Below are positions 2,465 to 24,742 of a stretch of 64,000 nt of DNA, piece by piece (positions within the stretch are counted from its first letter, which is position 1; every line of letters starts with the position of its first letter). The translations under genes were made by a program, and so were the position numbers. Below the pieces are notes generated by a model. The model searched no databases, had not been told where the DNA came from, and was given only the letters and a program-made list of their open reading frames with translations. Source of the stretch: Eubacterium limosum (GTDB lineage: Bacteria > Bacillota > Clostridia > Eubacteriales > Eubacteriaceae); NCBI RefSeq assembly GCF_000807675.2, contig NZ_CP019962.1:1736001-1800000 (forward strand). Direction: 5' to 3'.

Positions 2465-2481
2465 TGCAAGCTTTGTGCCAA
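2465..2481 (-). promoter_or_regulatory. Sigma-54 (RpoN) promoter for the racemase/methyltransferase operon
   Basis: Read on the minus strand this is TTGGCACAAAGCTTGCAT: -24 GG and -12 GC are separated by exactly 10 bases and both flanking blocks match the TGGCAC-N5-TTGC consensus. It is about 60 bases upstream of the start at 2403 and divergent from the promoter at 2803. Confidence 0.82.
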
Positions 2482-2624
2482 ATTTGTCTGTATTCATCTG
2501 GAATTTAGAAAAGATTTTTAAGCATGCTTTTGCAAAAGAACTTGCTTATTAAAAGGAAGAAATAAAAAAATTAAAAATTCCTAAAAAAATTCAAAGTTTT
2601 TGAAGAAAAAAACGGTTCCAAAAA

Positions 2625-2730
2625 TGCAAAAAAAGATTACATGCAAAAAATGATGACAATATCGTTTGGAACTTGGTTAAATAAAGGGTTTGAAAAGCAT
2701 TGCAAAACAGGAGTGCATAAAAATTTGCAC
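2625..2730. promoter_or_regulatory. Candidate activator binding sites between divergent sigma-54 promoters
   Basis: TGCAAAAAAAGATTACA at 2625-2641 matches 15 of 17 bases with 10521-10537, upstream of another sigma-54 promoter. GTGCA-N8-TGCAC at 2713-2730 resembles sites at 6368-6385 and 10502-10518. Sites lying 75-200 bases from the promoters are what an enhancer-binding activator would use. The rest of 2404-2802 is A/T-rich and shows no gene. Confidence 0.4.
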
Positions 2731-2802
2731 CACAGAAAGAAGCCGTTTTCACGAAATACCCTTTAATTTAGCTTAAATAGGATAAAAAATGGGATTTACG
2801 AA

Positions 2803-2820
2803 TTGGCACAAACCTTGCAA
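2803..2820 (+). promoter_or_regulatory. Sigma-54 (RpoN) promoter for the first BCCT transporter
   Basis: TTGGCACAAACCTTGCAA has the exact TGGCAC-N5-TTGC architecture (GG at 2805, GC at 2817). A start site near 2830 would give a leader of about 180 bases before the ATG at 3011. Confidence 0.88.
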
Positions 2821-2848
2821 TATATAATTGCATAGTCATTCGCTAAAT

Positions 2849-2976
2849 GATAGGCTTTTCCCAAAACCAGCCTGTTCCCATAGTATAGGGTGCAAAACAC
2901 TCGATTGTCAATGGAAGTTTAAAAGGTTACCATCAATATAGTATGGGTAATAGGCTGGTCAACGGTAAGGCTTATC
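2849..2976 (+). ncRNA. Candidate structured leader RNA of the BCCT transporter mRNA
   Basis: Nested pairings span the untranslated leader. GATAGGCTTT (2849-2858) pairs with AAGGCTTATC (2967-2976) with two G-U pairs. ACCAGCCT (2866-2873) pairs with AGGCTGGT (2952-2959). CCCATA (2877-2882) pairs with TATGGG (2942-2947). An inner ATTG/ATGG arm (2904-2914) pairs with CCAT/CAAT (2930-2937). The fold excludes the ribosome binding site near 2997. I do not recognise a known riboswitch class. Confidence 0.5.
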
Positions 2977-3010
2977 GTATTCGAAAATCTAAAAAAGAGG
3001 GAGAAGTATT

Positions 3011-4660
3011 ATGTTTAAGAAAGTCCGACTGATAACTGTAGGTATTCCTATCGTTTTAATGGGCGCTGTTTTGATCCTGGGTGCTACGGATCCGAACTTT
3101 ACAGACACAATGACTGCATTTTTCTTGGAGCTTATGCACAGCGGTGGCTGGCTGGTAGCTCTTGGTATCCTGTTATTTTTAGGATTCCTCGTTTTCTTAT
3201 TTGTGCATCCAATTGGCAGCACGAAGTTTGGGGGACCGAATGCCAAGCCAAAATACAGCACATGGAACTGGTGGGCGATCTCGCTGTGTGCCGGTATCGG
3301 TACCGGGATCGTATTCTGGGGGGCTGTTGAACCTCTGACCATTTCCTTTACACCGCCTGCATCTGCCGGCGTTGAACCGGGAAGCTATGCGGCCATTATC
3401 TGGTCTCTGGCAAAATGTTTCCAGCATTGGGCATTCCAGCCATATTCCATCTATGCGGTAGCAGCCATCTGCTGTGGTTACGCTTACTGGAACATGGGTA
3501 AGAGCTACGCTTCCAGCGCTGGCCTTGTTTACTGGAAAAATGGTAAAGACCTGAGCGACAAAGCTAACGATATTTTAGATGGGATTGTGTTATTCGCCAT
3601 CGTCGGTGGTGTTGCCGGTTCTTTAGGCTATGGTCTTTTACAGATTGGCGCAGGCTTGGATTTTGTATTCGGCATCACACCTGGACCAATGGTCTGGACT
3701 GCGATTGCGGTTGTAATTATTGTTTCTTATACAATTTCAAGCGCCACCGGTCTTGATAAGGGGATTCAGTGGCTGTCTGACAAAAATGCGTGGATTTTTA
3801 TCGCGCTGATGATTTTTATGTTTTTCTGTGGACCAGTACAGTACATTTGTAATCTTACAGTAGAATCCTTCGGTTACTACATTAACAATATCATTGCCTT
3901 AACCTCCTACACAGAACCAGTTGTAACAGCCGTTGCGGATTCAGAAATGTGGCCGCAGTGGTGGGATTTATACTGGATGACTGACTGGCTGTCCTTTGGA
4001 CCAATCGTTGGTTTGTTCCTCGTAAAAATGTCCTATGGCCGCACCATCCGTCAGTTTATTGTTGTCAATGTTATTTTACCGTCTATCTTTGGTGTTATCT
4101 GGTTTGGTATTTTCGGCGGATTCGCTATTAATATTCAGTTAACTGGTGTTTATGATTTAATGGAATTCTACAACGCCAGCGGGGCTGAAGCATTCATGAT
4201 GAAATTATTCGAGTTTGTTCCAGGCACGATGATTATTCGTGTTATTATGCTCGTTTTGGTAGCGCTGTCCTTTATTACACTGGCCGACTCTATGACATCG
4301 ACCATTTCTCAGATGTCCTTGAGACAGCAGACTTCTGATATTAAAGAAGCGCCGCTTCCAATCAAGGTTTTCTGGGGTGTCTTAATCGGTGCAGTATCCA
4401 TTCTGTTCGTCGTTACCGGCGGCATCAATGGTATAAAAATTGTTAAGACCATTGCGGGCTATCCGATGCTCTTTGTGGAAATAGCCATGATCATTGGTTT
4501 CCTGAGGTACTTCTTGTCTGGTAAAAATAAACAGGATGAAGTTACCTATGCGGCCGATCTTGATCGTCAGATTAAAGCAGCCGAGGCAGAAGCCGCGGAA
4601 GAGGCAGAGGCCAAAAAGAATAAGAAAAAAAGATTTGGTAAAGCATCTGCTTCTGAATAA
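3011..4660 (+). CDS. BCCT-family betaine/carnitine/choline-type transporter
   Basis: 549-residue inner membrane protein of the BCCT family with about 12 hydrophobic segments. The glycine-rich substrate-site motif GIGTGIVFWGAVEP sits at residues 95-108. The tryptophan-rich eighth segment is followed by VKMSYGRTIRQF, equivalent to the family's RISRGRTVREF loop. The hydrophilic Glu/Ala/Lys tail is highly charged. GAGGGAG about eight bases upstream supports the start. Transcribed from a sigma-54-type promoter and divergent from the racemase/methyltransferase operon, it probably imports a trimethylammonium compound as a demethylation substrate. The substrate and coupling ion are unknown. Confidence 0.92.
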   Translation: MFKKVRLITVGIPIVLMGAVLILGATDPNFTDTMTAFFLELMHSGGWLVALGILLFLGFLVFLFVHPIGSTKFGGPNAKPKYSTWNWWAISLCAGIGTGIVFWGAVEPLTISFTPPASAGVEPGSYAAIIWSLAKCFQHWAFQPYSIYAVAAICCGYAYWNMGKSYASSAGLVYWKNGKDLSDKANDILDGIVLFAIVGGVAGSLGYGLLQIGAGLDFVFGITPGPMVWTAIAVVIIVSYTISSATGLDKGIQWLSDKNAWIFIALMIFMFFCGPVQYICNLTVESFGYYINNIIALTSYTEPVVTAVADSEMWPQWWDLYWMTDWLSFGPIVGLFLVKMSYGRTIRQFIVVNVILPSIFGVIWFGIFGGFAINIQLTGVYDLMEFYNASGAEAFMMKLFEFVPGTMIIRVIMLVLVALSFITLADSMTSTISQMSLRQQTSDIKEAPLPIKVFWGVLIGAVSILFVVTGGINGIKIVKTIAGYPMLFVEIAMIIGFLRYFLSGKNKQDEVTYAADLDRQIKAAEAEAAEEAEAKKNKKKRFGKASASE

Positions 4661-4733
4661 TTAATTATATTGGTAATAACCGGGGACATGACCACTCCGG
4701 AAATTACATACATCGAAAACTTCCAAAGCAAAA

Positions 4734-4763
4734 ATAAAACAGCCGAAAGGCTGTTTTATTTTT
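4734..4763. terminator. Bidirectional intrinsic terminator between convergent genes
   Basis: AAAACAGCC-gaaa-GGCTGTTTT stem-loop with T-runs reading outward on both strands. It serves the transporter ending at 4660 and the regulator ending at 4774. Confidence 0.85.
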
Positions 4764-4773
4764 ATGCTCTTTT

Positions 4774-6219
4774 TTAATTCTCAAAATGATAGCAGCTGTT
4801 TTTTATGCCAAGGGTTCGCATTTTATATTGGAGACTCTGTCTTACCATGCCCAAGGCTTCCGCGCTTTTGGTAATGTTATAATTGTGCGTGCTCAGCGCC
4901 TGGAGGATCACCTTGCGCTCAAACGCTTCGGTCAGGCTCTTAAGAGAATGATGGCTGCTTGGATTCCATGTCTCGTTATTCAGAAGCGCACGACCGGCAG
5001 TACTTTTTTTAAGATCCATTGGCAATAGTTCTGAAGTAATGACATTACTGTTGTAAGATGAGAGTAAAATAGCACGGACGATGATGTGTTTGAGCTCACG
5101 GACATTGCCCGGCCAGTCATAGTTAAAAAGAAAAGCCCTGCTATCTTCTGAAAAGTCATAAAGCTTCTTACCCATGGCAGCCGATTCTGAATTTAAAAAG
5201 GAAAGTGCCAGTGGAATAATATCCTCCCTGCGTTCTCTAAGCGGCGGCAGGGCAATGGTCAGGGTTGCCAGCCGATAATACAGGTCAGAGCGGATGCGCC
5301 CCCCTTCAATGGCGGCCTGGGGGTGCTCATTCATGGCACTGATGATTTGGGCGTTAGTGGTGAGTTCTTTTGTACTTCCCACCCGCCTGTAGGTGCTGGT
5401 TTCCAGAATACGCAAAATTTTTGACTGGAGCATAAGATCCATGGAATTGATCTCATCCAGAAAAACAGTCCCGTTTTCTGCCGCTTCAAAAAGACCTTTG
5501 GTATCGCTGGCACCTGTGTAAGCGCCCTTCACCGTTCCAAAGAGTGTGCTTTCAAGCAGGGTCTCTGGGATGGCAGAGCAGTTGATGGCCACAAAAGGCG
5601 CGTTGCTTCTGCTGCTGGCATTGTGAATGCTTTGAGCAAAGACTTCTTTTCCTGTTCCGGTTTCGCCATAAATCAGCACTGGAGCAGAGATGTTGGCGGC
5701 TAGCTCAGCCTGCTGTGTGCAATCGCGGATGCTGTCTGATATGCCAGCAATATCTGAAATTTGGTAGCGGGTACCGTTGTTTGTTTTTTTCTGTTTCCTT
5801 AGTTTTTCTTCCAATTGCTCCAGCTTTTTTGATAGATAAATGTAGTCGGATTTATCCCTGTAAATACACATGGAGCCAACGATTTCTTTTCCTGCTTTGT
5901 CAAAAATTGGATAGACACAGCTGATAGCTTCGATATGCTTTCCGTCAGCGTTCATATAGCGGATGTTAAAATCTTTTAAAGGCTCGCCGTTTTTTAGGAC
6001 TCTTAAAGCTGGGGAGACTTCGCCGTCGTAAAATTTGTAAACCTCCAGCACATGCTTGCCAATAACATCCTCCCGCTTCATAGCGTCCAGGATTTCGCTA
6101 CCTTTGGAGAAGCCTACAAAGCGTCCGCCCTCATCGAGAATATTAATGGAAAAGTCCTCCACCTCTTCAAAAATCTTAATAGTATCAAGATCCAAATAAA
6201 ATTTTTTGTTTTTTTTCAT
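4774..6219 (-). CDS. Sigma-54-dependent transcriptional activator with PAS sensor
   Basis: 481-residue enhancer-binding protein. Residues about 12-125 form a PAS-like sensor, followed by a short coiled linker. The AAA+ domain carries Walker A GETGTGKE (185-192), the sigma-54 contact loop GAYTGA (232-237, a GAFTGA variant keeping the essential Thr) and Walker B VFLDEI (252-257). The arginine region LRERRED and the YDWPGNVRELKH segment follow. A Fis-type helix-turn-helix ends the protein (NITKSAEALGMVRQSLQYKM). It lies between two BCCT operons that both have sigma-54 promoters, and its own upstream region has one too, suggesting autoregulation. The likely ligand is a substrate of the adjacent transporters, which is an inference. 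Confidence 0.95.
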   Translation of the reverse strand: MKKNKKFYLDLDTIKIFEEVEDFSINILDEGGRFVGFSKGSEILDAMKREDVIGKHVLEVYKFYDGEVSPALRVLKNGEPLKDFNIRYMNADGKHIEAISCVYPIFDKAGKEIVGSMCIYRDKSDYIYLSKKLEQLEEKLRKQKKTNNGTRYQISDIAGISDSIRDCTQQAELAANISAPVLIYGETGTGKEVFAQSIHNASSRSNAPFVAINCSAIPETLLESTLFGTVKGAYTGASDTKGLFEAAENGTVFLDEINSMDLMLQSKILRILETSTYRRVGSTKELTTNAQIISAMNEHPQAAIEGGRIRSDLYYRLATLTIALPPLRERREDIIPLALSFLNSESAAMGKKLYDFSEDSRAFLFNYDWPGNVRELKHIIVRAILLSSYNSNVITSELLPMDLKKSTAGRALLNNETWNPSSHHSLKSLTEAFERKVILQALSTHNYNITKSAEALGMVRQSLQYKMRTLGIKNSCYHFEN

Positions 6220-6249: not shown

Positions 6250-6267
6250 ATGCAATATTCATACCAA
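6250..6267 (-). promoter_or_regulatory. Sigma-54-type promoter of the activator gene
   Basis: Minus-strand TTTGGTATGAATATTGCA keeps GG-N10-GC spacing, with a less perfect -24 block (TGGTAT). It lies about 30 bases upstream of the start at 6219. Confidence 0.65.
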
Positions 6268-6367
6268 ATATGAAAAAAACTGCAAAATAATTATGCTGGC
6301 AAAAATATTTTGCAATTCTGGTTTCTTTACAGATTAAGGGACTTTTAAGATATTAAAAACTAGATGA

Positions 6368-6385
6368 GTGCATAATAAATATGCA
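6368..6385. promoter_or_regulatory. Candidate upstream activator site
   Basis: Palindromic TGCATA-N5-TATGCA (6369-6385), preceded by G, lies about 50 bases upstream of the sigma-54 promoter at 6435. It resembles GTGCA-N8-TGCA elements near the promoters at 2803 and 10734. A stem-loop (AACGGCT/AGCCGTT near 6412-6430) stands between it and the promoter. Confidence 0.4.
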
Positions 6386-6434: not shown

Positions 6435-6452
6435 TTGGCATTGATCTTGCTT
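6435..6452 (+). promoter_or_regulatory. Sigma-54 (RpoN) promoter for the BCCT-methyltransferase operon
   Basis: TTGGCATTGATCTTGCTT: GG at 6437 and GC at 6449, with exact N10 spacing and good flanks. The leader to 6548 contains a TTACTGCT/AGCAGTAA hairpin (6484-6491 with 6507-6514). Confidence 0.85.
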
Positions 6453-6547: not shown

Positions 6548-8194
6548 ATGAACGAAAAGAAAAAAGTGAGTTGGTTGAAGCAGATTGACTGGTGGGTAGC
6601 CCTTCCAGCGCTTTCCATTTTGGCAGCTCTGATGGCCTGGGCATTGATTGATCCAACAGGAATGGGCAATTCGATTACTGTAATTTTCAATTTTCTGACC
6701 GATGGATTCGGCTGGGTTTACCTGATGCTTGGTCTTCTGTTCCTGGGCTTTTGCCTCTGGCTGGCCTTTGGTCCTTACCGAAATGTAAAGCTTGGGAAGG
6801 ATGATGAAAAACCACAGCATTCCTTCTTCTCATGGTTTGCCATGATCATTGCCTGCGGTTACGGCGTTGGACTGGTATTCTGGGGGGCTGCAGAGCCGTT
6901 GAGTTTTCTGCAGACACCGCCGATGGGCATGGAGCCTTACACGGCAGAATCTGCTGTAAGAGCGCTGGCACAGGCGTTCTTCCATTGGGGCTGGATTCCA
7001 TGGGCCATCTATATGGTCGTTGGAGTGACCATGGGCTACTTTATTTTTAGAAAGGGAATGCCGCCATTTTTCAGCCGTGTGCTGGAGCCTATCTTTGGCG
7101 ATAAGGTAAAAACCAAAGGCTTCCGTATTCTTGATGGTTTTCTGGTATTCGGTGTTGTCGGCGGTGTTACTACAGCTACAGGGCTTGGTATCCTTCAGCT
7201 GGCATCTGGTCTGTTCTCGCTTTTCGGAATTCCGGAAAACAATCTGACCTATATTATCATTGCCATTGCGTGGGCTGCACTGTTTACCACAAGCGCTGTC
7301 AGTGGGATTGACAAGGGAATTAAGATTCTCAGTAATCTCAACATTCCACTCTGCATCCTGGTCTGTGTGGTCGTCTTTATTGTCGGGCCAACCGCCTTTA
7401 TTTTGAATACCATGAGCAGTTCCCTTGGCGACATGCTTGGCAACTTCTTCCCAATGGCTTTATGGACAGACAGCATTGACAAGACAGGCTTTGCTCAGGG
7501 CTGGACCATTTTCTACTGGGCATGGTGGATCGCTTCTGCGCCGTCAACCGGCCTCTTTGTAGCGGACATCTCACGCGGCCGTACCCTGAAGGAAATTGTA
7601 CTGGTCCATCTGGGTGCAGCGCCGATCGCTACCTGGCTATGGTTCGCAACCTTTGGCGGAACCGCTATTTTCCAGGAAATGTTCCAGAATTTAGGATTGG
7701 TTGCTTCCATGAATGAGATGGGAACGCAGTCCGTCGTCTTTACTATGCTGTCGCATCTGCCCCTCGGTCAGATTTTGGCAGTGCTGTTCCTGATTTTGAT
7801 CTTCCTGTTCCTGGCAACAACCGTTGACTCTTTCTCATACGTTTGCGCTCAGGTATCAACCAAGGAAGATCAGAATCCTAAAATGCCTTCAAAACCATTG
7901 AGAGCAGTCTGGGCCATCGCCATCGCGGCATTAGCCATTACAATGATTTTAGTTGGTAAAGGACAGATCCAGAGCTTGCAGCTGTCATCGGTTGTGGCCT
8001 CCATTGTCATTATGGTGGTAATGGTTCTGATGATTATCTCGATGTTTAAATCACTTAAGCAGGAAGAACTGGAAGGAACCATTGACCTTGCCCGTTTGAA
8101 CAGCAGACAACACATTTTAGAAGAAAAACAAAAAGCAAGCGAGATGAAAAAAGCTCAGCGCACTGCCAAAAAAGAAAAAACAGAAAATATTTAA
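6548..8194 (+). CDS. BCCT-family betaine/carnitine/choline-type transporter
   Basis: 548-residue polytopic membrane protein. The glycine motif GYGVGLVFWGAAEP lies near residues 102-115 and the Trp-rich segment FYWAWWIASAPSTGLF is followed by ADISRGRTLKEI, closer to the classical betaine-carrier pattern than the copy at 3011. The Lys/Glu-rich C-terminal tail resembles regulatory tails of the family. AAGAGGAGAG precedes the ATG. The next gene, an MttB homologue, starts 22 bases after the stop, so import and demethylation of one substrate are probably cotranscribed from the sigma-54 promoter at 6435. Confidence 0.93.
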   Translation: MNEKKKVSWLKQIDWWVALPALSILAALMAWALIDPTGMGNSITVIFNFLTDGFGWVYLMLGLLFLGFCLWLAFGPYRNVKLGKDDEKPQHSFFSWFAMIIACGYGVGLVFWGAAEPLSFLQTPPMGMEPYTAESAVRALAQAFFHWGWIPWAIYMVVGVTMGYFIFRKGMPPFFSRVLEPIFGDKVKTKGFRILDGFLVFGVVGGVTTATGLGILQLASGLFSLFGIPENNLTYIIIAIAWAALFTTSAVSGIDKGIKILSNLNIPLCILVCVVVFIVGPTAFILNTMSSSLGDMLGNFFPMALWTDSIDKTGFAQGWTIFYWAWWIASAPSTGLFVADISRGRTLKEIVLVHLGAAPIATWLWFATFGGTAIFQEMFQNLGLVASMNEMGTQSVVFTMLSHLPLGQILAVLFLILIFLFLATTVDSFSYVCAQVSTKEDQNPKMPSKPLRAVWAIAIAALAITMILVGKGQIQSLQLSSVVASIVIMVVMVLMIISMFKSLKQEELEGTIDLARLNSRQHILEEKQKASEMKKAQRTAKKEKTENI

Positions 8195-8215: not shown

Positions 8216-9619
8216 ATGAGATTAAAGTTTAATTTTGCAGAAAAGGAAGAACTCGATAAAATTCATGAAGCGACGCTGGATGTTTTAAAAAATGTCGGTG
8301 TGAATTTTCATGAAGAAGAGGCCCTTCAAATTTTCAGGGAGCATGGCGCCAGGGTAAGCGGCAATACCGTTTTTATCGAAGCGGACATGCTTGAAACTGC
8401 CCTGTCGACCGCCCCTGCTCAGTTCGAGTGGAAAGGGCGGGAGAGAAGCGTTGTCATCGGCGGCGGAGACAGTGTGTCGGTTCCTTGCTATGGGCCTATA
8501 TACCGTCTGAAAAAAGGAAAAATTGAGGATATTGTGCTTCAGGACTTCGTGGATGTGACAAAGCTGCACGAAAGCAGCAGCGTATTGGACACCGGAAACC
8601 CAAATGTGATGGAACCAGTGGCGATACCAAAGGAAATCCGGCGCAGCTATCAGATGGCAACCGCTCTAAAATATCATACCAAACCGGTCATGGGAATGGT
8701 TGATGGTAAGAAGGCTGCTGAGATGAGCATCCGGATGGCTCAGGATTTTTATGATGTACATGACCAGACGCCGGTTGTCGCGGGGCTGATCAATGTGATG
8801 TCTCCCCTGGGGATCAGCACGGCCATGTGCGAAGCGTTGATTGCCTATGCGAGAGCTGGACAGCCTGTAGTGGTTGCGGAAGGCGGCTTCCCGGGCGTTA
8901 CGCTGCCGCCGAGCATTGCCGGAACACTGGTATCCAACAATGCCGGTGTACTGGCCGGTATTACCCTGGCACAGCTTGTAAATCCTGGAACACCAGTTGT
9001 TTACGGACTCCCTGCCGTAAGCGGCGACCTGAAGGTAATCTCCATGGCAATCGGCGGTGCCGAAACGCCTTTGTTTGTTTATTATGCCAAGGAAATCGCC
9101 AATTACTATCATCTGCCAGTGCGGGCCGGCGGCGGACTCACAGACGCCAAAGCGGTTGATTACCAGGCTGGTAAAGAAACCGCGCTAAACCTCTTTGCAA
9201 CCTATGGCGCAGGCATTGACTTTATCATTCACGCCTGCGGTATCCTGGATACCTACAATACCATCAGCTTTGAAAAGCTGGTACTGGACGAAGAAGCAGC
9301 TTTGAGCATCAAGCGTCAGTTTAAGGGCTTTGTGGTGGATGACAAGCATATGATGGTTGAAGAAATTGCCAAGGCCGGTCCAGGGGGAAGCTACATTAAC
9401 AAACGGACACCAAAGATTTACCGAGAAGAATTCATGCTTCCTAAACTGGCGAACCGGGAAACGACACAAAACTGGCTGAAAGACGGCGCAAAGAGCGTTG
9501 AGTCTCTGGCCGCCGAAATGGTAGAAGAACGAATCGGTAATTACAAACTCCCTGAATTAGCCGATTTCCAGAAAAAAATATTAGAAAAATACATTCCGCA
9601 AGAGTGGAATGCAGACTAA
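8216..9619 (+). CDS. MttB-family corrinoid methyltransferase, non-pyrrolysine
   Basis: 467-residue MttB-superfamily protein with no in-frame stop. Family landmarks are VLKNVGVNFHEEEAL near the N-terminus, PPSIAGTLVSNNAGVLAGI in the middle, the RAGGGLTDAKAVDYQAG loop, and FIIHACGILDTYN followed by SFEKLVLDEE near residue 350. It belongs with the copies at 59 and 20904 (HxxGIL type) rather than the copy at 24812 (IHDVGYMESG type). It is the second gene of a transporter-methyltransferase operon. No corrinoid gene sits beside it; the one at 13099 is the nearest on the same strand. Confidence 0.92.
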   Translation: MRLKFNFAEKEELDKIHEATLDVLKNVGVNFHEEEALQIFREHGARVSGNTVFIEADMLETALSTAPAQFEWKGRERSVVIGGGDSVSVPCYGPIYRLKKGKIEDIVLQDFVDVTKLHESSSVLDTGNPNVMEPVAIPKEIRRSYQMATALKYHTKPVMGMVDGKKAAEMSIRMAQDFYDVHDQTPVVAGLINVMSPLGISTAMCEALIAYARAGQPVVVAEGGFPGVTLPPSIAGTLVSNNAGVLAGITLAQLVNPGTPVVYGLPAVSGDLKVISMAIGGAETPLFVYYAKEIANYYHLPVRAGGGLTDAKAVDYQAGKETALNLFATYGAGIDFIIHACGILDTYNTISFEKLVLDEEAALSIKRQFKGFVVDDKHMMVEEIAKAGPGGSYINKRTPKIYREEFMLPKLANRETTQNWLKDGAKSVESLAAEMVEERIGNYKLPELADFQKKILEKYIPQEWNAD

Positions 9620-10501: not shown

Positions 10502-10537
10502 GTGCAAAAAAATATGCATATGCAAAAACCGATTACA
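10502..10537. promoter_or_regulatory. Candidate activator sites upstream of the sigma-54 promoter at 10734
   Basis: GTGCA-N8-TGCA at 10502-10518 and TGCAAAAACCGATTACA at 10521-10537 recur near the divergent promoters at 2465/2803. Another AGCA-N8-TGCA lies near 10613. The remainder of 10300-10730 is A/T-rich; no convincing gene is visible. Confidence 0.4.
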
Positions 10538-10733
10538 CATTTTTGGAAAAGGCTTAAAATCGCCATAAAATAACGGTTTTTTTAGAAAATGAGCTTGATT
10601 CCTTCAAAAAGAGCAAAAAAATTTGCAGTTTAAATTTTTGGTAAAAATCCTTTTGACTGATGAGGAACTCCAGAAAATGGCTTTAACAGGCTTTTTACAA
10701 AAAAAGTGATCATCTTTCCAGGTGCTTTTAAAT

Positions 10734-10751
10734 TTGGCACGCATATTGCGT
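10734..10751 (+). promoter_or_regulatory. Sigma-54 (RpoN) promoter for the dehydrogenase-PanB-corrinoid operon
   Basis: TTGGCACGCATATTGCGT is a near-perfect TGGCACG-N4-TTGC element with GG at 10736 and GC at 10748. It is about 75 bases upstream of the start at 10824. Confidence 0.9.
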
Positions 10752-10823
10752 TATATAATGGCATCACACAAATTAAAAAAGTAAAAGAAAATCCAAAGGA
10801 ACAAAAAAAGGAGAATGAAAACA

Positions 10824-12038
10824 ATGGCAGATATGAGTTATTTAAAAGACAAACCAATCGCGGTATTGGGCGCAGGCGGTGTTGGTAAAGCAATCGCAGG
10901 GGACTGTGCTTTAGGCGGCGCAAAAGTAAGAATTTGCGACATGGAACCCTTCGCACAGAAAACATTGATGAATGTTGACAAAGTTGGGATCAAATTCTAC
11001 GGTGAACAGTGTAACCTCTACGGTTTCGAACGTGAAGGCTTTGCTAAAATGGACAAAGTAACAACAGACGTAGCAGAAGCTGTTAAAGGCGCAGGTATCA
11101 TCGTTGTTGCAACACCGACCTTCGGTCACAAACCATTCTTTGAAAAATTAATCCCATGTCTGGAAGACGGACAGGTTATCCACATCTTCCCAGATAACTA
11201 TGGTTCTTTAATCTTACGCAAAATGATGCGTGAAGCTGGCTGCACAGCAAAAGTTATCATCGGCGGCTGGTCTTCCTCTACATACGGCAGTCGTGTTGAT
11301 ATGCCTGGTGGTGTTATCACACACAAAATCAGAGTATACTACCGTGCGATCACCCTGCGTGGTGCTGCAATGCCGGCAACAGATACAGAAGCTTTCATCG
11401 AAAGCTCCAAATATTTACCATCTATGGACGCTGTAACCAACGGCGACGGCGCAGTAGCAGGTGATACTGTATTAGATACTGGTTTCTCTAACGTTAACCC
11501 TGTACTTCACTGCCCAGGCGCAATCCTCGGTGTATCCACAATGGAAAACTTCGGAACCATCTTCGGCGAAGACAAATATAAATTCTCGATCTACTCTCAC
11601 GCATACTGTCCATCCATTTCTCAGGTTCAGTACACTTTCTATGAAGAAGAATGTACCTTAGCTGAAAAACTGGGCGTTGGCATTCAGCCATACGAAAAAG
11701 AACACTTCTTCTCACGTGAAAATGTTCTTGGCCAGGAATACATGGGACTGGATTACTTAATTCCATTCGACAAACAGGATCCAATCCAGTACGGCACCGG
11801 CCCCTTCGACATGAACAACCGCTATATCACTGAAGATATTCCAGTTGGCTGCTATGTATACCAGCAGTTAGGTGATGTCTTAGGCGTAGAAACACCCGTT
11901 GTTGACTCTATGATTAACCTGGCTAACGCTATCCACGGCAGAGACTTAACCGAAAACGGCTATACTTTAGAATACCTGGGTATTGACGGCATGTCGGTTG
12001 AAGAATTAAATACCTACTTAAGAACAGGCGAAAAATAA
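10824..12038 (+). CDS. Octopine/nopaline dehydrogenase-family NAD(P)-dependent oxidoreductase
   Basis: 404-residue protein with an N-terminal Rossmann fold (GAGGVG at residues 16-21) and a C-terminal helical domain containing NPVLHCPGAILG, matching the Asn/His catalytic region of the opine dehydrogenase/ketopantoate reductase superfamily. Members oxidise or form N-(carboxyalkyl) amino acids or reduce 2-keto acids. The ATG at 10824 is preferred because GGAG lies ten bases upstream; the ATG at 10815 directly abuts that site. It is first in a sigma-54-driven operon with a PanB homologue and a corrinoid protein, a setting unlike ordinary opine synthesis. Substrate unknown. Confidence 0.82.
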   Translation: MADMSYLKDKPIAVLGAGGVGKAIAGDCALGGAKVRICDMEPFAQKTLMNVDKVGIKFYGEQCNLYGFEREGFAKMDKVTTDVAEAVKGAGIIVVATPTFGHKPFFEKLIPCLEDGQVIHIFPDNYGSLILRKMMREAGCTAKVIIGGWSSSTYGSRVDMPGGVITHKIRVYYRAITLRGAAMPATDTEAFIESSKYLPSMDAVTNGDGAVAGDTVLDTGFSNVNPVLHCPGAILGVSTMENFGTIFGEDKYKFSIYSHAYCPSISQVQYTFYEEECTLAEKLGVGIQPYEKEHFFSRENVLGQEYMGLDYLIPFDKQDPIQYGTGPFDMNNRYITEDIPVGCYVYQQLGDVLGVETPVVDSMINLANAIHGRDLTENGYTLEYLGIDGMSVEELNTYLRTGEK

Positions 12039-12084
12039 ATTTCCTCATTAAATTTACATCATAAATAAACCTTATTTAGAATAC

Positions 12085-12104
12085 CGGACAGCTCCGGCTG
12101 TCCG
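12085..12104 (+). other. Intercistronic hairpin
   Basis: CGGACAGC-tccg-GCTGTCCG perfect stem in the 170-base gap between the dehydrogenase and panB-like genes. It is followed by a C-run and only a weak T-stretch, so partial termination or RNA processing is possible. Confidence 0.6.
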
Positions 12105-12208
12105 CCCCCCTCTTGTTTTTGAAAATAAATAAAAAGAAATGTTATATACCGGAAAATTTTGAGAGCTTTGGGAAATATGTGAGACTCAAAAAATAAAAGG
12201 AGACTATC

Positions 12209-13060: not shown

Positions 13061-13098
13061 ATCATTGGGAAATTGATTGAGAAAAATAGGAGAAAATT

Positions 13099-13725: not shown

Positions 13726-13767
13726 GAAAAAACTGATTCGTTATATACCCTTCTAAAAATATATAAT

Positions 13768-13806
13768 AGCCCTTTGGATCGTTGGTCACAATCCAGAGGG
13801 CTTTTT
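13768..13806 (+). terminator. Intrinsic terminator after the corrinoid protein gene
   Basis: AGCCCTTTGGAT (13768-13779) pairs with ATCCAGAGGGCT (13791-13802), followed by TTTTT. It separates the PanB operon from the aconitase X operon. Confidence 0.85.
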
Positions 13807-13858
13807 AGCAAGTAAATAAGAAAGGCATTCTGTCATAGAATGAGGGATAGAAAAGGAA

Positions 13859-15151: not shown

Positions 15152-15564
15152 AAGGTCGCGGCGCTGTTGGCGGAATCGCCAAAGGGTTTGCCATGGTAAG
15201 CGAGGAGACGATTCAGGGCTGGTCGGGCATTGATGAAGAAACCGGCTTGATTATGGAAATCGGTCACCCCTTTGAGGGCAAAAGTATCATCGGTTCGATT
15301 TTAATCATATCAGGCGGAAAAGGTTCAAATGGCTGGTCTTGTCATTTCCATGCAGCTAAAATGAGTGGTAAGGCGCCGGCAGGAATGGTTTTCCCGAAGA
15401 TTGATTCACGAACCGGTGTGGCCGCAGTGGTGACCGGCGTACCAACCGTAACCGATCTGGAAGAAAATGTCTTTGAACTGGTAAAAACAGGCGACTATGT
15501 ATTGGTAAACGGTGACGAAGGCTACATTGAGATTTTAGAATCAGGAGAAGAAGCAAATGGATGA
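15136..15564 (+). CDS. Aconitase X swivel (small) subunit
   Basis: 142-residue DUF126-type domain that caps the active site of the large aconitase X subunit. The start overlaps the large-subunit end; AAGGA precedes the ATG. Typical features are GRGAVGGIAKGFAMVSEE, an ISGGKGSNG loop, and PKIDSRTGVAAVVTGVPTV. Its last eight bases overlap the next gene, indicating translational coupling. Confidence 0.88.
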   Translation: MGRKIKGRGAVGGIAKGFAMVSEETIQGWSGIDEETGLIMEIGHPFEGKSIIGSILIISGGKGSNGWSCHFHAAKMSGKAPAGMVFPKIDSRTGVAAVVTGVPTVTDLEENVFELVKTGDYVLVNGDEGYIEILESGEEANG

Positions 15565-16345
15565 AATTGTACGCAATTATGGTTATCTGGGCGATAAGGA
15601 AGACCTGGATCAGCATTTTTATGTGACAAAGGGACAATGGGTCGCAGGGTATACGGTTGGAATCATGCTGCTGGACGTCCACTATCCGTTGCTTCCCGGA
15701 AATGTGGTCAATGCCAGCACCTACAGCTATCCGGTACGGCATGCCTGGGTACCGGGCGCTGACCAGAACAGAATGCACAGCGGAGATAAAAGCCTTTTGC
15801 CAGAGCTGATTAAAACAGCCAGACAGCTGGAGCTGGAAGGCTGCCGCGCCATCTGCGGCGCATGCGGCTATTTTGGGCATTTTCAGAAAAAGGTGGCTGA
15901 GGCACTGGATATTCCAGTTTACCTATCCAGCGTGATTCAGGCGTCATGGATTGCGGCAGGGCTTAAAAGCAGCCAGAAAATTGGTGTTTTATGCGCGGAT
16001 GGCAAGAATCTGACCAGAGAATTATTTGCAGAATGCAGCGTTTCGGAAGAAATCTTCAACCGGTGCGTGATTAAATCCGCGGGAAAGCTTCCAGAGTTCT
16101 CGGCCTTTATGGAGCGCCGCGGCCATTTTGACAATGCCGCTGTCCGTGAGGAACTCAAAGGGCTGGTTCGGGAAATTTTAGATGAGAATGAAAATGTTGG
16201 CGCCATTCTTTTGGAATGCAGTGATATGCCGCCTTATTCTGCGGCAATTCAGGCGGAGTTTAACCTGCCGGTATTTGATTTTATCACAATGATCAACTTT
16301 GTGCACAATGCGGTTGCCCAAAAGCCTTATTATGGCTTTATGTAA
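15557..16345 (+). CDS. Aspartate/glutamate racemase-superfamily protein
   Basis: 262-residue paralogue of 1624-2403. The expected catalytic cysteines are C103 in GACGYFGH and C221 in LLECSDMPPY. It overlaps the aconitase X small-subunit gene by eight bases. In this operon it could interconvert stereoisomers of an amino or hydroxy acid before or after aconitase X dehydration. No specific reaction can be assigned. Confidence 0.82.
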   Translation: MDEIVRNYGYLGDKEDLDQHFYVTKGQWVAGYTVGIMLLDVHYPLLPGNVVNASTYSYPVRHAWVPGADQNRMHSGDKSLLPELIKTARQLELEGCRAICGACGYFGHFQKKVAEALDIPVYLSSVIQASWIAAGLKSSQKIGVLCADGKNLTRELFAECSVSEEIFNRCVIKSAGKLPEFSAFMERRGHFDNAAVREELKGLVREILDENENVGAILLECSDMPPYSAAIQAEFNLPVFDFITMINFVHNAVAQKPYYGFM

Positions 16346-16364
16346 AAATGGAAGTGATGCTGGT

Positions 16365-17249
16365 ATGTCTCTGGGAATAATCGCGTCGATTGCTGCGGCC
16401 TTCAGCTGCGGTGGGATTCTAGTGCTAACAAAATGGATGATGAACACAGGAATGACCTCTGTGGAGGTTCTGTTTTACCGTTTCCTGTTTGTGTTTATTA
16501 TTACAGGGGTATGGTTTATCATAAAAAAACAAAACTGCCGGATTACCTTCAGACAGCTGGTAACACTGGTGCTGCTGACTGTGGCGGGCTATGGCGGGTC
16601 AACCTTTCTGCTGGCCACCTCCTTTAACTTCCTGCCCATGGGGCTGGCCACCATGCTTTACTTTACCTATCCACTGTTTGTGCTGGTTATCATGACCATG
16701 CTTTTCAAAGAAAAATTGACACGAGTAAAAGCCGTTTCATTGTCGTTAGCCATTCTCGGAATCTTTTGCCTGATGAATTTCAGTCTGGAGCTTTTTAATC
16801 TTGGCAGTGTGCTGGCCATTGGATCGGGTCTGGCTTACGCCATCTATCTGGTGGGAATACAGAAGAGCAGTGTCAAGTCGCTGGATAATCTGGTCATTGT
16901 TTTTTACCTTTCAGGATTTAGCTGTATTTTCTTTTTTGTACAGGGGATCCTTGCAGGTACGCCGCAGTTTTTGGCAGTTGATGTTCCGCAGCTTTTAATG
17001 GGAACCTGCATTGGAGCAGTGACTGTCTTTGTGCTTGGGGCTGTTGCCTACTCGATCAAATGCATCGGTTCGACAAAAACCTCATTGATCATTTCTTTTG
17101 AAGCTGTGGTGTCCCTGATCCTGGGAATTTTAATTTTTGGCGATCCGTACAACATGAATACCTGGATCGGCTCCATACTGATGACCCTGTCTGTCATTTT
17201 CATTACCCGAGAAAACACAGAGGAGGCATTGGTCGCAGCTGAAAAATGA
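16365..17249 (+). CDS. EamA/DMT-family permease
   Basis: 294-residue membrane protein of two repeated EamA modules, about ten hydrophobic segments. The first module ends with FLPMGLATMLYFTYPLFV and the second with GSTKTSLIISFEAVVSLILGI. The start at 16365 is favoured because it follows the previous stop at 16345 and begins in the first membrane helix. DMT proteins often export amino acids or metabolites, so it may remove the demethylated product. A paralogue at 29928 is likewise close upstream of a MetH-activation-like gene. Confidence 0.85.
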   Translation: MSLGIIASIAAAFSCGGILVLTKWMMNTGMTSVEVLFYRFLFVFIITGVWFIIKKQNCRITFRQLVTLVLLTVAGYGGSTFLLATSFNFLPMGLATMLYFTYPLFVLVIMTMLFKEKLTRVKAVSLSLAILGIFCLMNFSLELFNLGSVLAIGSGLAYAIYLVGIQKSSVKSLDNLVIVFYLSGFSCIFFFVQGILAGTPQFLAVDVPQLLMGTCIGAVTVFVLGAVAYSIKCIGSTKTSLIISFEAVVSLILGILIFGDPYNMNTWIGSILMTLSVIFITRENTEEALVAAEK

Positions 17250-20903: not shown

Positions 20904-22361
20904 TTAGAATTTTTCAGATTCAGGTAAAAATTTGTTTAAAATTTGTTTCTGAGTTTGTGTTAAATCGGGCAGAATGTAATTTTCAACTCTTTCTTCAATT
21001 TCCTTTGCCGCCCGTTCGCGGATATCACCAATTTTGTCAGCGATAGGCTGGGGATCTCCGGCGGCGCGGTTAAAGAGCTTGGTCAGGTAGTGCTCCTGAC
21101 GGTAGTCTTTTGGTGTCCTGCCGGACAGATAATTACCAAGCGGTCCGGCTTTTTTGATTTCATCAAAAACCTTTTCGGCCTTTGTATCGCTGATATCAAT
21201 ACCGCGGTTCAGTCTCAGAAGAATTCGATTAACTTCTTCGTCCATCACGAATTTTTCATAGCTTCCGAGGGCATAGGACTGGAGGATGCCCGCATGGTGC
21301 AGGATAAAGTCTGCTTTGCCCAGGTAGGTTGTCATAAGGTTCATAAAGGTTTCCACCCCGGCCTGGTAATCGGGCTTCATGGAGTCTGTTCCAGCAACGC
21401 CGGTGCGCACTGGTATCTGGTAATAGCGTGCCAGGGCCAGGGAAGACATTTGGATCAGCTGAGCCTCCGGTGCGCCGATGGCGAGAGCTACCTCACGCAT
21501 ATCTGTGGCGCTCGAGACAGAGCCATAAATAACAGGCACACCTGGATTGATGAGCTGAGTCAGTACGATACCGGACAGAATGGTCGCGTTGTTCTGGATT
21601 ACAGTTCCGAGCAGCGCTGCCGGGGCAGTCATGTTTGTCATGGAACAGGTGATAATGGTTACAGGCTGTCCTTCTTCGCATAAGCCGATAATGTTATCCA
21701 GCACCTCGTAGGAGTAACCAAGGGGTGAGAGCGCGCACGCATTGGTCAGGAGAACTGGTTTATCCCAGATATCGTAGAACTCTTTGTAAAGATTCGCAAT
21801 ACCGCGGGCGGCTTTCTTGAGACTTTTGCCGCGGGTGTTCAGGCTGTTGGCCACATTGCCATAGGTTGGCTTTTTTGAATATTTCAGGCACATGGAGACC
21901 TGAGGCAGGTAAAAGTCATCCTGATCTTTGTCAAGGTCAGGGGTATCGAAAGCAGCATTGTTGACAAAATCAGTCACATCGCTGGTGTCCATGAGTTTCA
22001 GAAATTTAATCATGTCCGCCATCTGGGCCACACGGTAGGTATCATCCTCAAACAGGAACTTGGAAGGACCATAGCAGCCAACTGTTTTTGGACGGAAGGG
22101 TTCACCAATTGATGTTTCACCGCTGCTTGTATGAACAGTGAAGGTTTTGGGAACCGTCTCCAGTGCTGCGTTTAATAAGGATTCATCGATTTTAACAATA
22201 CTTCCTTCAACCGTTGCTCCGTGTTTTTTGAAAATATCCAATGCTTCTTCGCAATTGAAGGAGACACCCACTTCTTTTAAAACTTTCAGGGTGTATTCAT
22301 GCAGAAGTTCAACATCGCGGGTAGAGACATAATTTTCATAAAATTTTCGATTAATATACAT
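20904..22361 (-). CDS. MttB-family corrinoid methyltransferase, non-pyrrolysine
   Basis: 485-residue MttB-superfamily methyltransferase with an uninterrupted frame. Landmarks include VLKEVGVSFNCEEALDIF, TAPAALLGTVIQNNATILSGI, RTGVAGTDSMKPDYQAG and FILHHAGILQSYA followed by SYEKFVMDEE. GGAGG precedes the start. It is the third gene of an operon with an ornithine cyclodeaminase-family enzyme and a corrinoid protein, the only methyltransferase here with its corrinoid partner directly adjacent. The OCD-like enzyme suggests a proline- or ornithine-derived betaine as substrate, for example proline betaine, but this is inference. Confidence 0.93.
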   Translation of the reverse strand: MYINRKFYENYVSTRDVELLHEYTLKVLKEVGVSFNCEEALDIFKKHGATVEGSIVKIDESLLNAALETVPKTFTVHTSSGETSIGEPFRPKTVGCYGPSKFLFEDDTYRVAQMADMIKFLKLMDTSDVTDFVNNAAFDTPDLDKDQDDFYLPQVSMCLKYSKKPTYGNVANSLNTRGKSLKKAARGIANLYKEFYDIWDKPVLLTNACALSPLGYSYEVLDNIIGLCEEGQPVTIITCSMTNMTAPAALLGTVIQNNATILSGIVLTQLINPGVPVIYGSVSSATDMREVALAIGAPEAQLIQMSSLALARYYQIPVRTGVAGTDSMKPDYQAGVETFMNLMTTYLGKADFILHHAGILQSYALGSYEKFVMDEEVNRILLRLNRGIDISDTKAEKVFDEIKKAGPLGNYLSGRTPKDYRQEHYLTKLFNRAAGDPQPIADKIGDIRERAAKEIEERVENYILPDLTQTQKQILNKFLPESEKF

Positions 22362-22427
22362 TATTGGATTCCTCCGATATTTTTTGAATTATGGATGCAA
22401 CGGTATCCAAAGGCAGTCGCATCAATG

Positions 22428-22463
22428 GCCCACTCTTTTTTGAAAGAGGAAGAAAGAGTGGGC
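22428..22463 (-). other. Intercistronic hairpin between corrinoid and methyltransferase genes
   Basis: GCCCACTCTTT (22428-22438) and AAAGAGTGGGC (22453-22463) form a perfect 11-bp stem with no U-tract. It may stabilise or process the mRNA so the two products differ in amount. Confidence 0.6.
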
Positions 22464-22510
22464 AGGTTCTTTATTTTAAAAATTTGTCAAAATAGTTTGT
22501 TTTTAAGTTT

Positions 22511-23131
22511 TTAAACCAATGCTTTGGCTTTTTCGGCTGCAGTTGACGCATCAGCGGTGTAGATGGCGCTGATCTTTTCAGCGTAGGCTGGTGTTACTGG
22601 TGCGCCGCCGATCATATACTTGGCATCAATGCCTGCGTCCTTACAGGTTTTGATAATTTCATCCATGTAAGTCATGGTCGTTGTCAGCATGGCGGACATG
22701 GCCACAATATCCGCATTGTTTTCTTTAGCGGCTTCAACGAAGGCTTCCTTTTTAGCGTCAACACCAAGATTAACTACTTTGAATCCAGCACTTTCAAGCA
22801 TCATAACCACCAGGTTTTTCCCAATGTCATGGAGATCGCCTTTGACAGTGCCGATGACAACTGTACCAAGGGAGGTAACATCACCTTCGGCCAGAAGCGG
22901 CTTAACAATGTCCATGCCAGCGTTCATGGCGCGGGCAGCCATTAAAACCTCAGGAACAAACATTTCGCCGTTTGCAAACTTTTCACCGACAACATTCATA
23001 CCGGTCAACAGACCATCATTGATGATTTCAAGAGGTGATGCATTGCCAGATAAAGCGGCATTAACTTCATTGACAACGCCGTTTTCGTTTCCGCTTACAA
23101 CATAATCGCTGATCATTGCATAGTTACTCAT
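22511..23131 (-). CDS. Methyltransferase corrinoid protein (MttC/MtbC family)
   Basis: 206-residue corrinoid carrier. Helical cap with GEKFANGEMFVPEVLMAARAM, then the cobalt-binding motif DLHDIG, SAMLTTT and GGAPVTP of the B12 fold. GTGAGGA precedes the ATG. It sits between the OCD-like gene and the MttB homologue at 20904 and should be the methyl acceptor for that enzyme. It is close to the copy at 13099, so the two may be interchangeable. Confidence 0.96.
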   Translation of the reverse strand: MSNYAMISDYVVSGNENGVVNEVNAALSGNASPLEIINDGLLTGMNVVGEKFANGEMFVPEVLMAARAMNAGMDIVKPLLAEGDVTSLGTVVIGTVKGDLHDIGKNLVVMMLESAGFKVVNLGVDAKKEAFVEAAKENNADIVAMSAMLTTTMTYMDEIIKTCKDAGIDAKYMIGGAPVTPAYAEKISAIYTADASTAAEKAKALV

Positions 23132-23172
23132 AATTTTATCCTCACTTTTTTTAATTTTATATAAGAATGCTT

Positions 23173-24216
23173 TTACAGGGCAAGCTTTTGGCCAATGCCC
23201 TTTTCAAGGGCGATATCGAATATTGCGCGGGCAACTGTCATATCACAGACAGACATCCCAATGTTACTGCAGACAATCAGTTCATCCTTGGAAGTTCGGC
23301 CTTCAGCTAAGCCAGCGAGAATCTCGCCGGTCTGGCAGTAAACCTTCGGGAGCCCCTTATCTGACGGGAAGTAGCCCATCTCTGCAAACAGCTCGTGCTC
23401 TTCTTTGCTGTCGACAATGTATTTATCGGCGCGGTACTGTGTCTTAAGGTCAAAGAAGGTGTTCATGTCACAGGGCACAATGGTCTGTCCGGCTGAGATC
23501 CATTCGTCCTTAACAACGCACAGAGGATCTTTCAGGATGATGGTGGCCGAACTCATGACCTCGCATTTTTCAGCGATTTCCTGAGGCGAAGCCGCCTTGA
23601 CGATTTCAACATCAATTTCGGGCTGGACAATTTTAATCAGGTTATCCGCAGCTGCTTCCACGACATCATATACATAAATTTTTTTCAGGTTTTTAAGTGT
23701 TTTCGTGACATAACGCACATGCTCAATCCCCTGTACACCACAGCCGAACATACCAAAGTTTTCAGCATCTGGATGAAGGGCAGCAGCAGCTAAGACTGTA
23801 ACAGCCGGTGTTCGCATGGCGGTAATCCAGGCACTGTCCATCACTGCGACAGGGACACCAGAAAGCACATCATTTAATACCAAAAGGCCAGTTGTCTGTG
23901 GAAGATTGTACTTCTTTGGATTGTTTGGGTAGCATTCGATCCATTTACACCCAATGGCTCTCTGCTCTGGAACATAGGCTGGCATTGCATGGAAAAAGAC
24001 TTCTGTCCATGGATGAACGCCAATTTTTGCGGGCATCTCAAATTCTTTTTTTCCATGGGAGATCAACGTTTTCTTGGTGATTTCCAGAATATCGTCGCGT
24101 GTGAGGCCGATATTCTCACATTCTGGTTTTGTCAGATAAATAATTTCTTTGCCAATATCCAGTTTCTTCGAAATGTTTTCTCTGTCTTGTTCAAAATAAG
24201 CGTGATCAAAATTCAT
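23173..24216 (-). CDS. Ornithine cyclodeaminase / mu-crystallin family protein
   Basis: 347-residue NAD(P)-binding enzyme. The Rossmann motif is GCGVQGIEHVRY near residue 170, preceded by SAWITAMRTPAV, typical of the family, whose members include ornithine cyclodeaminase, delta-1-pyrroline-2-carboxylate reductase and other ketimine reductases. The ATG at 24216 has GGAGGG seven bases upstream; an upstream TTG overlaps that site and is rejected. It is first in the operon under a sigma-54-type promoter, followed by corrinoid protein and methyltransferase. A step on a cyclic imino acid linked to proline betaine use is a reasonable but untested idea. Confidence 0.88.
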   Translation of the reverse strand: MNFDHAYFEQDRENISKKLDIGKEIIYLTKPECENIGLTRDDILEITKKTLISHGKKEFEMPAKIGVHPWTEVFFHAMPAYVPEQRAIGCKWIECYPNNPKKYNLPQTTGLLVLNDVLSGVPVAVMDSAWITAMRTPAVTVLAAAALHPDAENFGMFGCGVQGIEHVRYVTKTLKNLKKIYVYDVVEAAADNLIKIVQPEIDVEIVKAASPQEIAEKCEVMSSATIILKDPLCVVKDEWISAGQTIVPCDMNTFFDLKTQYRADKYIVDSKEEHELFAEMGYFPSDKGLPKVYCQTGEILAGLAEGRTSKDELIVCSNIGMSVCDMTVARAIFDIALEKGIGQKLAL

Positions 24217-24272
24217 ATATATTCCCTCCAAAAGTTAATAGATTAAAAAAGTTTATGTTTGCTGGATAAGAG

Positions 24273-24290
24273 ACGCAATACTTGTGCCAA
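24273..24290 (-). promoter_or_regulatory. Sigma-54 (RpoN) promoter for the OCD-corrinoid-MttB operon
   Basis: Minus-strand TTTGGCACAAGTATTGCG, with GG-N10-GC spacing and consensus flanks, about 55 bases upstream of the start at 24216. Confidence 0.87.
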
Positions 24291-24447
24291 AATTTCTGGT
24301 TTTCGTAAAAATAAAGTGTCTTAAACTTTGATTACATATATATAACCAAGAAAAAGTACTTTCGGAAAAGCATTAAGAAAAAAATCGGAGAGTGCGCGGG
24401 TCAAAAAAAGCGTCTTAAAACCGGACGTTTTTTTGACAAATAATAAC

Positions 24448-24561
24448 AATTTTTACATTTTTTGACAAAATGAAAAGGCTTATTAAAAAGTTTTCGTTAT
24501 TTTTTTAACATTTTTAGCGGGTGTAAAAAATGTCAAAATAATTTTTACATTTTTTGACAAA
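24448..24561. promoter_or_regulatory. Repeated motif midway between divergent sigma-54 promoters (candidate enhancer)
   Basis: A 22-bp sequence with core TTTTTACATTTTTTGACAAA occurs exactly at 24448-24469 and 24540-24561. An inverted related copy, TGTAAAAAATGTCA, is at 24522-24535, and a partial copy near 24428-24441. The cluster is centred about 220 bases from each -24 element (24288 and 24727), the expected layout for shared activator binding. The rest of 24217-24811 has no gene. Confidence 0.6.
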
Positions 24562-24724
24562 TTTGACGTTTTTTATTCAAATGAATTAATACGTTTTCAA
24601 TAGAAATTCTTTCTTAATAAAATGGAATAAAATTTTACGACAGGAAGGAGACTTTTGTATATATAAGGTTGGAAAATCACAAATACCAGTTAAAACTACC
24701 ACTTTTTTAAAATGTTTTACGAAT

Positions 24725-24742
24725 ATGGCACAGGTCTTGCGT
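24725..24742 (+). promoter_or_regulatory. Sigma-54 (RpoN) promoter for the MttB-BCCT-activator operon
   Basis: TATGGCACAGGTCTTGCG, GG at 24727 and GC at 24739, exact N10 spacing. It lies about 70 bases upstream of the start at 24812. Confidence 0.87.

Follow-up and report, generated by a model that had tools for sequence, protein, structure and literature searches.

Seven short elements in a stretch of 64,000 nucleotides (nt) of the Eubacterium limosum genome (NCBI RefSeq assembly GCF_000807675.2, contig NZ_CP019962.1, positions 1,736,001 to 1,800,000; hereafter the window, whose own numbering is used unless a position is marked as a genome position) are very probably -24/-12 promoters for sigma-54 (RpoN) that belong to three activator modules, in a lineage whose sigma-54 appears to serve very largely the MttB family of methyltransferases. 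An earlier note on this DNA had proposed a sigma-54 regulon in an acetogen. The regulon is supported by the sites themselves, by an rpoN gene and by site matches that concentrate at MttB genes, and E. limosum is indeed an acetogen, according to the available text of PMC5651825.

All seven elements are present, at most 1-2 bases from where they had been placed, and each shows the fixed spacing of GG and GC with flanks close to the TGGCAC/TTGC that had been described for them, 7/7 matching TGGYAYN5TTGC (Table 1). The exact sequence TGGCACN5TTGC is found in five of them, while the element at 6436 has TGGCAT and that at 6252, the weakest, reads TGGTATN5TTGC. Six matches to TGGCAYN5TTGC were observed in the window against 0.52 expected, and seven to TGGYAYN5TTGC against 0.62, counts that none of 100 dinucleotide shuffles reached for either pattern. 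A loose scan of the window for TGGCACN5TTGC with three mismatches gave no excess (446 observed, 505 expected), so that the signal is confined to near-perfect sites. The seven elements are all non-coding and upstream of a gene, with 32-192 nt from the GC to the start codon when starts are chosen by their Shine-Dalgarno sequence (23-192 nt when the first start codon is used), in keeping with the 30-185 bases given before, and the genes downstream make up transporter, methyltransferase, regulator and dehydrogenase operons, as described.

The gene whose absence the earlier note had named as fatal to its reading is there: the E. limosum genome, one contig of 4,422,837 bases, encodes a single intact RpoN of 470 amino acids (aa) with all three sigma-54 Pfam domains (activator-interacting, core-binding and DNA-binding). 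Across this genome the strict pattern has 48 matches, against 6 for the reversed pattern. Open reading frames (ORFs) were called simply, as longest ORFs with Shine-Dalgarno-scored starts, and counted from 120 aa upwards; DNA within 5 kb of any of the 42 MttB genes, 7.4% of the genome, was taken as the MttB zone. Outside ORFs lie 27 of the 48 strict sites, 23 of them in the MttB zone, compared with 0/21 for the sites inside ORFs (Fisher p 6e-10); when all strict sites are taken together, 23/48 fall in the zone (p 5e-14). The concentration of RpoN hits at MttB genes that had been proposed as a test is thus found.

Flanking bases separate the same groups of sites. We built a matrix from 24 promoter-placed sites (23 near MttB genes and one at the dihydroxyacetone kinase operon) that were picked by position and not by their flanks, and each site was left out in turn when its flanks were scored. 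A flank score above 0, computed on bases that the pattern leaves unfixed, was obtained for 23/24 promoter-placed sites versus 2/24 other strict matches. In 537 kb fetched from the genome, 25 sites reach a matrix score of at least 19, of which 24 are within 5 kb of an MttB gene, and the weak element at 6252 scores 26.2 on the flank-including matrix though it was outside the training set. A 20-letter pattern, with up to two mismatches, has 57 matches genome-wide versus 13 when reversed; its perfect matches are all promoter-placed (13/13), as are 7/10 of those with one mismatch. Also among the one-mismatch matches are genome 964701 and 3473431. Three strict sites (genome 2025938, 2776299 and 3956304), non-coding but distant from MttB genes, were left out of the matrix and have flank scores below 0, and one strict match (genome 1395431) has a flank score of 6.2, yet lies inside a 145-aa ORF. 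The housekeeping region of the window beyond 32 kb, from which such elements had been said to be missing, contains no strict site; one TGGYAN6TTGC match (60180) and one matrix match of at least 10 (38377, score 17.0, lacking the -12 GC) occur there, both inside an ORF.

The sites are also conserved, since 7/7 still fit TGGYAYN5TTGC in all four Eubacterium genomes compared, of which E. limosum is one, and the changes among these genomes fall on unfixed positions, apart from a C-to-T change at the Y of 2804 in one of them (G025). Element 2466 is identical in all four genomes, and element 6252 keeps its TGGTAT and TTGC unchanged in all four.

The sigma-54 activators of E. limosum are distributed in the same way as its sites. 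The MttB zone holds 18/19 full-length activators (p 7e-20), all 18 of them within 3 kb; the count leaves out two weak matches to Sigma54_activat, at genome 3627038 (46.7 bits) and 3140750 (34.7 bits). PF00158 and a Walker A-like motif are found in 19/19, together with a GAFTGA-like loop, which reads GAFTDA in one (genome 760361). Both of the PAS-containing activators that had been reported in the same 28 kb as the elements are confirmed (4774-6219 and 28039-29889). These two and a third, at genome 1733515, combine an N-terminal PAS domain with a C-terminal Fis-type helix-turn-helix (HTH); some of the remaining 16 give a weak PAS or HTH match, or none. The MttB-distant activator has HPr and PAS domains and stands beside EIIA-man, Dak1 and Dak2 genes.

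Two further features of these activators were observed. Over the 150 residues that lead up to the AAA domain (134 in one protein), aromatics number 11-23 in 18/18 MttB-linked activators and 8 in the HPr-type activator; an aromatic cage for quaternary amines in the N-terminal regions of the MttB-linked activators is a possible interpretation. At genome 758604-761284 stands a pair of activator genes that overlap in head-to-tail order. Its second member is the one with GAFTDA, and this overlapping pair with its GAFTDA recurs in two other Eubacterium genomes; it may work only as a mixed ring.

We propose that RNA polymerase carrying RpoN would read the seven -24/-12 promoters, and that at each of them a closed complex would persist until it is opened by a local enhancer-binding activator that hydrolyses ATP. 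In module 1, promoters 2466, 2804 and 10735 would respond to the product of the last gene of the 2466 operon, outside the window; in module 2, promoters 6252 and 6436 would respond to the activator at 4774-6219, which would also drive its own gene; and in module 3, promoters 24275 and 24726 would respond to the activator at 28039-29889, which lies inside an operon that is probably under its control. What each PAS domain detects is probably the methylated amine of its own module or a product of that amine, and transporter, methyltransferase and downstream enzymes would then be made only with that substrate present. Similar layouts recur across the genome and would very largely turn the sigma-54 system of this lineage into parallel substrate-specific switches for the MttB family.

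The earlier note had counted two activators for the seven promoters. Both exist, but a third, outside the window, is indicated for three of the promoters. This activator, at genome 1733515, lies some 1.5 kb beyond the window's left edge, and the module 1 operon probably runs past that edge to its gene (genome 1733050-1734495). For comparison we used two genomes of another genus of the family, taken for Acetobacterium (G018 and G002; 15 kb fetched from each). Both have the module 1 gene set, with sigma-54 sites before the racemase, BCCT and dehydrogenase genes, and in each 15-kb stretch the sole activator, located beyond the MttB genes, is 69% identical to 1733515 and only 48-49% identical to window activator 4774. 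Because the same genes and promoters occur there with only an orthologue of 1733515 nearby, promoters 2466, 2804 and 10735 most likely answer to activator 1733515, as judged from gene content. Conservation within this gene set is uneven: across the genera the racemase (93-94%), dehydrogenase (89-90%) and PanB-like (87-88%) proteins are 87-94% identical to those of E. limosum, whereas the adjoining MttB (73%), BCCT (65-66%) and activator proteins are only 65-73% identical.

Candidate enhancers lie upstream of the promoters in all three modules; of the three kinds, modules 1 and 3 each have one to themselves, and the other is common to modules 1 and 2. The first is a 17-bp unit, TGCAAAAANNGATKACA, with three exact copies in the 537 kb, two of them in tandem at 2625-2658 and one at 10521, and no exact copy in regions B or D, the upstream regions of modules 2 and 3. 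In G002 there is one identical copy, and a second with 2 mismatches 17 bp on. The module 3 candidate comprises two direct copies of a 25-nt sequence, at 24445 and at 24537, that are 96% alike; the pattern TGTMA5-6TGTMA occurs three times in the 537 kb, always between the two module 3 promoters. The common kind is a dyad, GCA-W8/9-TGC, of which 7 of the 11 occurrences in the 537 kb fall in regions A, B and C, where 0.07 would be expected; one of these seven, at 2817, overlaps the promoter there, and a dyad at 2816-2832 lies across the -12 element of BCCT promoter 2804. The dyads of region C stand out from the DNA around them by their conservation in four genomes, as 3/354 circular shifts were as good. 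None of the exact dyad patterns was found in region D, where the repeats are imperfect and mostly direct. The two divergent promoters of module 1 (2452-2481 and 2803-2832) are in addition 30-nt inverted copies of each other, 83% complementary.

Among the alternatives, the least credible, to which we assign hardly any weight, is that ordinary sigma-A promoters drive the genes and that the elements arose by chance or are mere relics: although 21/48 genome-wide strict matches do lie inside ORFs and resemble chance matches, the shuffle counts, the position of the sites, their flanks and their conservation across two genera all oppose it. We regard it as unlikely, though a good deal less so, that all seven promoters answer to the two activators encoded in the window. 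The GCA-W8/9-TGC dyad is found in regions A, B and C, around activator 4774, which has a paralogue in 1733515 (59% over the AAA domain), so that cross-activation is possible; yet the Acetobacterium-type genomes keep module 1 with the 1733515 orthologue as the only nearby activator, and the 17-bp unit, present in regions A and C, has no exact match in B or D.

RpoN had also been put forward as the master switch for methylated-amine use, and in this form the claim is too wide. It is true that 18/19 activators and 23/27 non-coding strict sites are at MttB genes, but many MttB genes are not reached by them. Walking upstream along the operons, we found a site for 19/41 placed MttB genes; the remaining gene (genome 4269777-4271198) was missed by the ORF caller, and its operon (genome 4262211-4272498), read by hand, adds four genes if one transcript is assumed, which brings the total to 23/42. 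Rather than every MttB gene, about 23/42 therefore lie behind such a promoter. The clearest case among the others is the choline operon (genome 225101-230698). Its MttB gene (227644-229071) precedes genes for EamA, pterin-binding and corrinoid proteins, and a kinase-family gene is divergent from it, which is the layout of the published mthB, mthA, mthC, mthK cluster, whose mthB was choline-specific in the E. limosum proteome, as given in the available text (PMC12155760). Since this operon is without a site or a nearby activator, RpoN would not be a switch for all methylated amines, and its role as master switch of all such use in E. limosum strikes us as quite improbable.

Several observations weigh against our own proposal of -24/-12 promoters in three activator modules, within a sigma-54 system largely given over to MttB. 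About 19/42 MttB genes are left without a sigma-54 site after the operon walk and the reading by hand; for the choline operon there was no matrix match of at least 10 in genome 226000-231000, and the nearest activator is 187 kb away. Binomial p values treat clustered genes as independent. On the enhancer side, the 17-bp unit is present in G018 in 2-mismatch forms only, modules 1 and 2 have the GCA-W8/9-TGC dyad in common, and the dyads of regions A and B do not stand out by conservation from the DNA around them (153/523 and 45/236 shifts as good). The enhancer patterns were written after viewing the aligned regions, so that their rarity elsewhere is descriptive and no unbiased test. A dyad common to 25 promoters was tried and rejected: the top words were mainly A/T-rich (AAAA-N8-TTTT in 15/25 promoters versus 5.7 expected, with a maximum of 13 for any word in 60 Markov sets), and as such words say little on a specific binding site they were replaced by module-by-module words. 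Among relatives of activator 28039 (the best 80 of 498 were kept, giving 77 loci), MttB is present at only 19/77 loci, and 11/19 of these have a sigma-54 site before MttB or BCCT. Lastly, the published transcription start site (TSS) study of E. limosum, which lists rpoN, names only the housekeeping motif in its available text, where the growth conditions are glucose and H2/CO2 and betaine is unmentioned, and so it tests the matter neither way (PMC5651825).

The proposed dedication of sigma-54 to MttB differs among genomes. In a further Eubacterium genome (G024), 18/20 activators and 25/44 strict sites have one of 41 MttB matches, two of them short pieces, no more than 5 kb away. The two Acetobacterium-type genomes, with 5 and 6 MttB genes, have 2/10 and 2/8 activators within 5 kb of MttB, and 5/47 and 4/43 strict sites near it. 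Candidatus Formimonas warabiya DCMF has 24/62 activators in its MttB zone (9.7% of the genome, p 1e-9), its 83 MttB matches including some that are pieces of one gene. The link between MttB and sigma-54 is wider than the genus, with near-complete dedication in only two Eubacterium of the five genomes tested.

The E. limosum set can be seen as an unusually large case of an already known type of system. In Sporomusa sphaeroides KIAC, differential RNA sequencing identified 24 promoters with TGGCA-N6-TTGC, and multiple such promoters in the betaine cluster were activated on betaine, according to the available text (PMC12456013, 2025). This SigL betaine cluster is like E. limosum in its TGGCA-N6-TTGC motif, its transporter and methyltransferase genes and its sigma-54 activators; it is one 58 kb cluster with TSSs mapped on betaine, whereas the some 25 promoters and 18 MttB-linked activators of E. 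limosum are spread over the genome and are known here from sequence alone. The Clostridiales sigma-54 regulons of PMC6615313 likewise pair local activators with -24/-12 promoters, and their DhaQ/dhaKLM entry resembles the HPr-PAS activator by EIIA-man, Dak1 and Dak2; the main text of that paper contains no trimethylamine, betaine, methyltransferase or corrinoid. MttB (COG5598) has been named a sigma-54 target in Clostridia by matrix scanning (PMC12316311, 2025), in a class-level passage that has no organism-level map, activators or enhancers; the main text names neither Eubacterium nor Acetobacterium.

In a literature search of partial coverage we found no report of sigma-54 control of MttB genes in E. 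limosum, and the combination of E. limosum, RpoN and betaine led only to the Sporomusa paper. RocR is a sigma-54 activator. The E. limosum MtcB and MtyB genes are reported to be divergent from RocR homologues, and MtyB was detected only in cells grown on its own substrate, in a paper whose main text has 'sigma' once, as a chemicals supplier (PMC8604678). Four MttB genes of the genome have an MFS gene in their operon and a divergent activator, and 4/4 have a site (neighbours partly scanned); MtcB and MtyB are probably to be placed among these four genes.

It may be that sigma-54 is nearly single-purpose in E. limosum and its close relatives, with about 18 activators that cover the MttB family as a code of one activator per substrate, every one having a separate N-terminal sensor and, for the most part, a separate enhancer word; we judge the chances of this proposal to be about even. 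If it is true, the activators themselves could point to what dozens of unassigned MttB enzymes act on. The substrate is known for few of the 42 MttB genes, to judge from the four enzymes in the available texts of PMC8604678 and PMC12155760, and a compound-responsive activator would suggest the substrate of the neighbouring MttB without enzyme purification. The same texts report that each characterised MttB enzyme is made by E. limosum only on the substrate of that enzyme, and give no mechanism (PMC8604678, PMC12155760); a local activator for each operon, acting through sigma-54, would be a direct mechanism for such substrate-specific expression.

Table 1. Sigma-54 elements, candidate enhancers and genes of the three modules, in window coordinates.
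Feature	Position	Strand	Basis or sequence
Sigma-54 element, racemase-MttB-MttB-activator operon (module 1)	2466..2480	-	TGGCACAAAGCTTGC
Sigma-54 element, BCCT transporter 3011-4660 (module 1)	2804..2818	+	pattern match, conserved
Weaker sigma-54 element before the activator's own gene (module 2)	6252..6266	-	TGGTATGAATATTGC
Sigma-54 element, BCCT-MttB operon (module 2)	6436..6450	+	pattern match, conserved
Sigma-54 element, dehydrogenase operon (module 1)	10735..10749	+	pattern match, conserved
Sigma-54 element, operon 20904-24231 (module 3)	24275..24289	-	pattern match, conserved
Sigma-54 element, MttB-BCCT-activator operon (module 3)	24726..24740	+	pattern match, conserved
Tandem candidate enhancer, two 17-bp units head to tail	2625..2658	+	TGCAAAAANNGATKACA; exact repeats
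Candidate enhancer dyad TGCA-N8-TGCA (module 1)	2714..2729	.	pattern scan
Three candidate dyads (6281, 6298, 6369) between divergent promoters (module 2)	6281..6385	.	pattern scan
Candidate enhancers, dehydrogenase operon: dyads 10503 and 10612, 17-bp unit 10521 (module 1)	10503..10627	.	
Candidate enhancer, repeated TGTMA5-6TGTMA units (module 3)	24445..24561	.	repeat/pattern scan
MttB-family methyltransferase (module 1)	59..1507	-	Pfam PF06253
Asp/Glu racemase-family protein, first gene of operon (module 1)	1624..2403	-	Pfam PF01177
BCCT transporter (module 1)	3011..4660	+	Pfam PF02028
PAS sigma-54 activator (module 2)	4774..6219	-	PF00158, PAS_9, HTH_8; GAYTGA loop
BCCT transporter (module 2)	6548..8194	+	Pfam PF02028
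MttB-family methyltransferase (module 2)	8216..9619	+	Pfam PF06253
Presumed operon, dehydrogenase-led (module 1)	10815..17249	+	Pfam
Presumed operon: ornithine cyclodeaminase-like, corrinoid protein, MttB (module 3)	20904..24231	-	Pfam
MttB-family methyltransferase (module 3)	24764..26266	+	Pfam; alternative start 24812 with better ribosome site
BCCT transporter (module 3)	26347..28026	+	Pfam
PAS sigma-54 activator (module 3)	28039..29889	+	Pfam; GSFTGA loop

The dehydrogenase-led run of module 1 encodes an octopine-dehydrogenase-like protein, a PanB-like protein, a corrinoid protein, an aconitase X in two subunits, a racemase-family protein and an EamA transporter. The aconitase X family includes hydroxyproline dehydratases. 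A split aconitase X (PF04412 and PF01989) is found in two sigma-54-led runs, this one and another at genome 764955-768665, and the substrate of the modules that contain it may be a proline-type betaine. Directly beyond the module 3 MttB gene, at 19337-20599, an AraC-type regulator with a PocR domain is encoded, which could be a second regulator of the module 3 MttB operon. Three RNAs in the window score above their Rfam gathering thresholds: a 6S RNA (39843-40021), a raiA RNA (46510-46714) and a SAM riboswitch (53298-53401).

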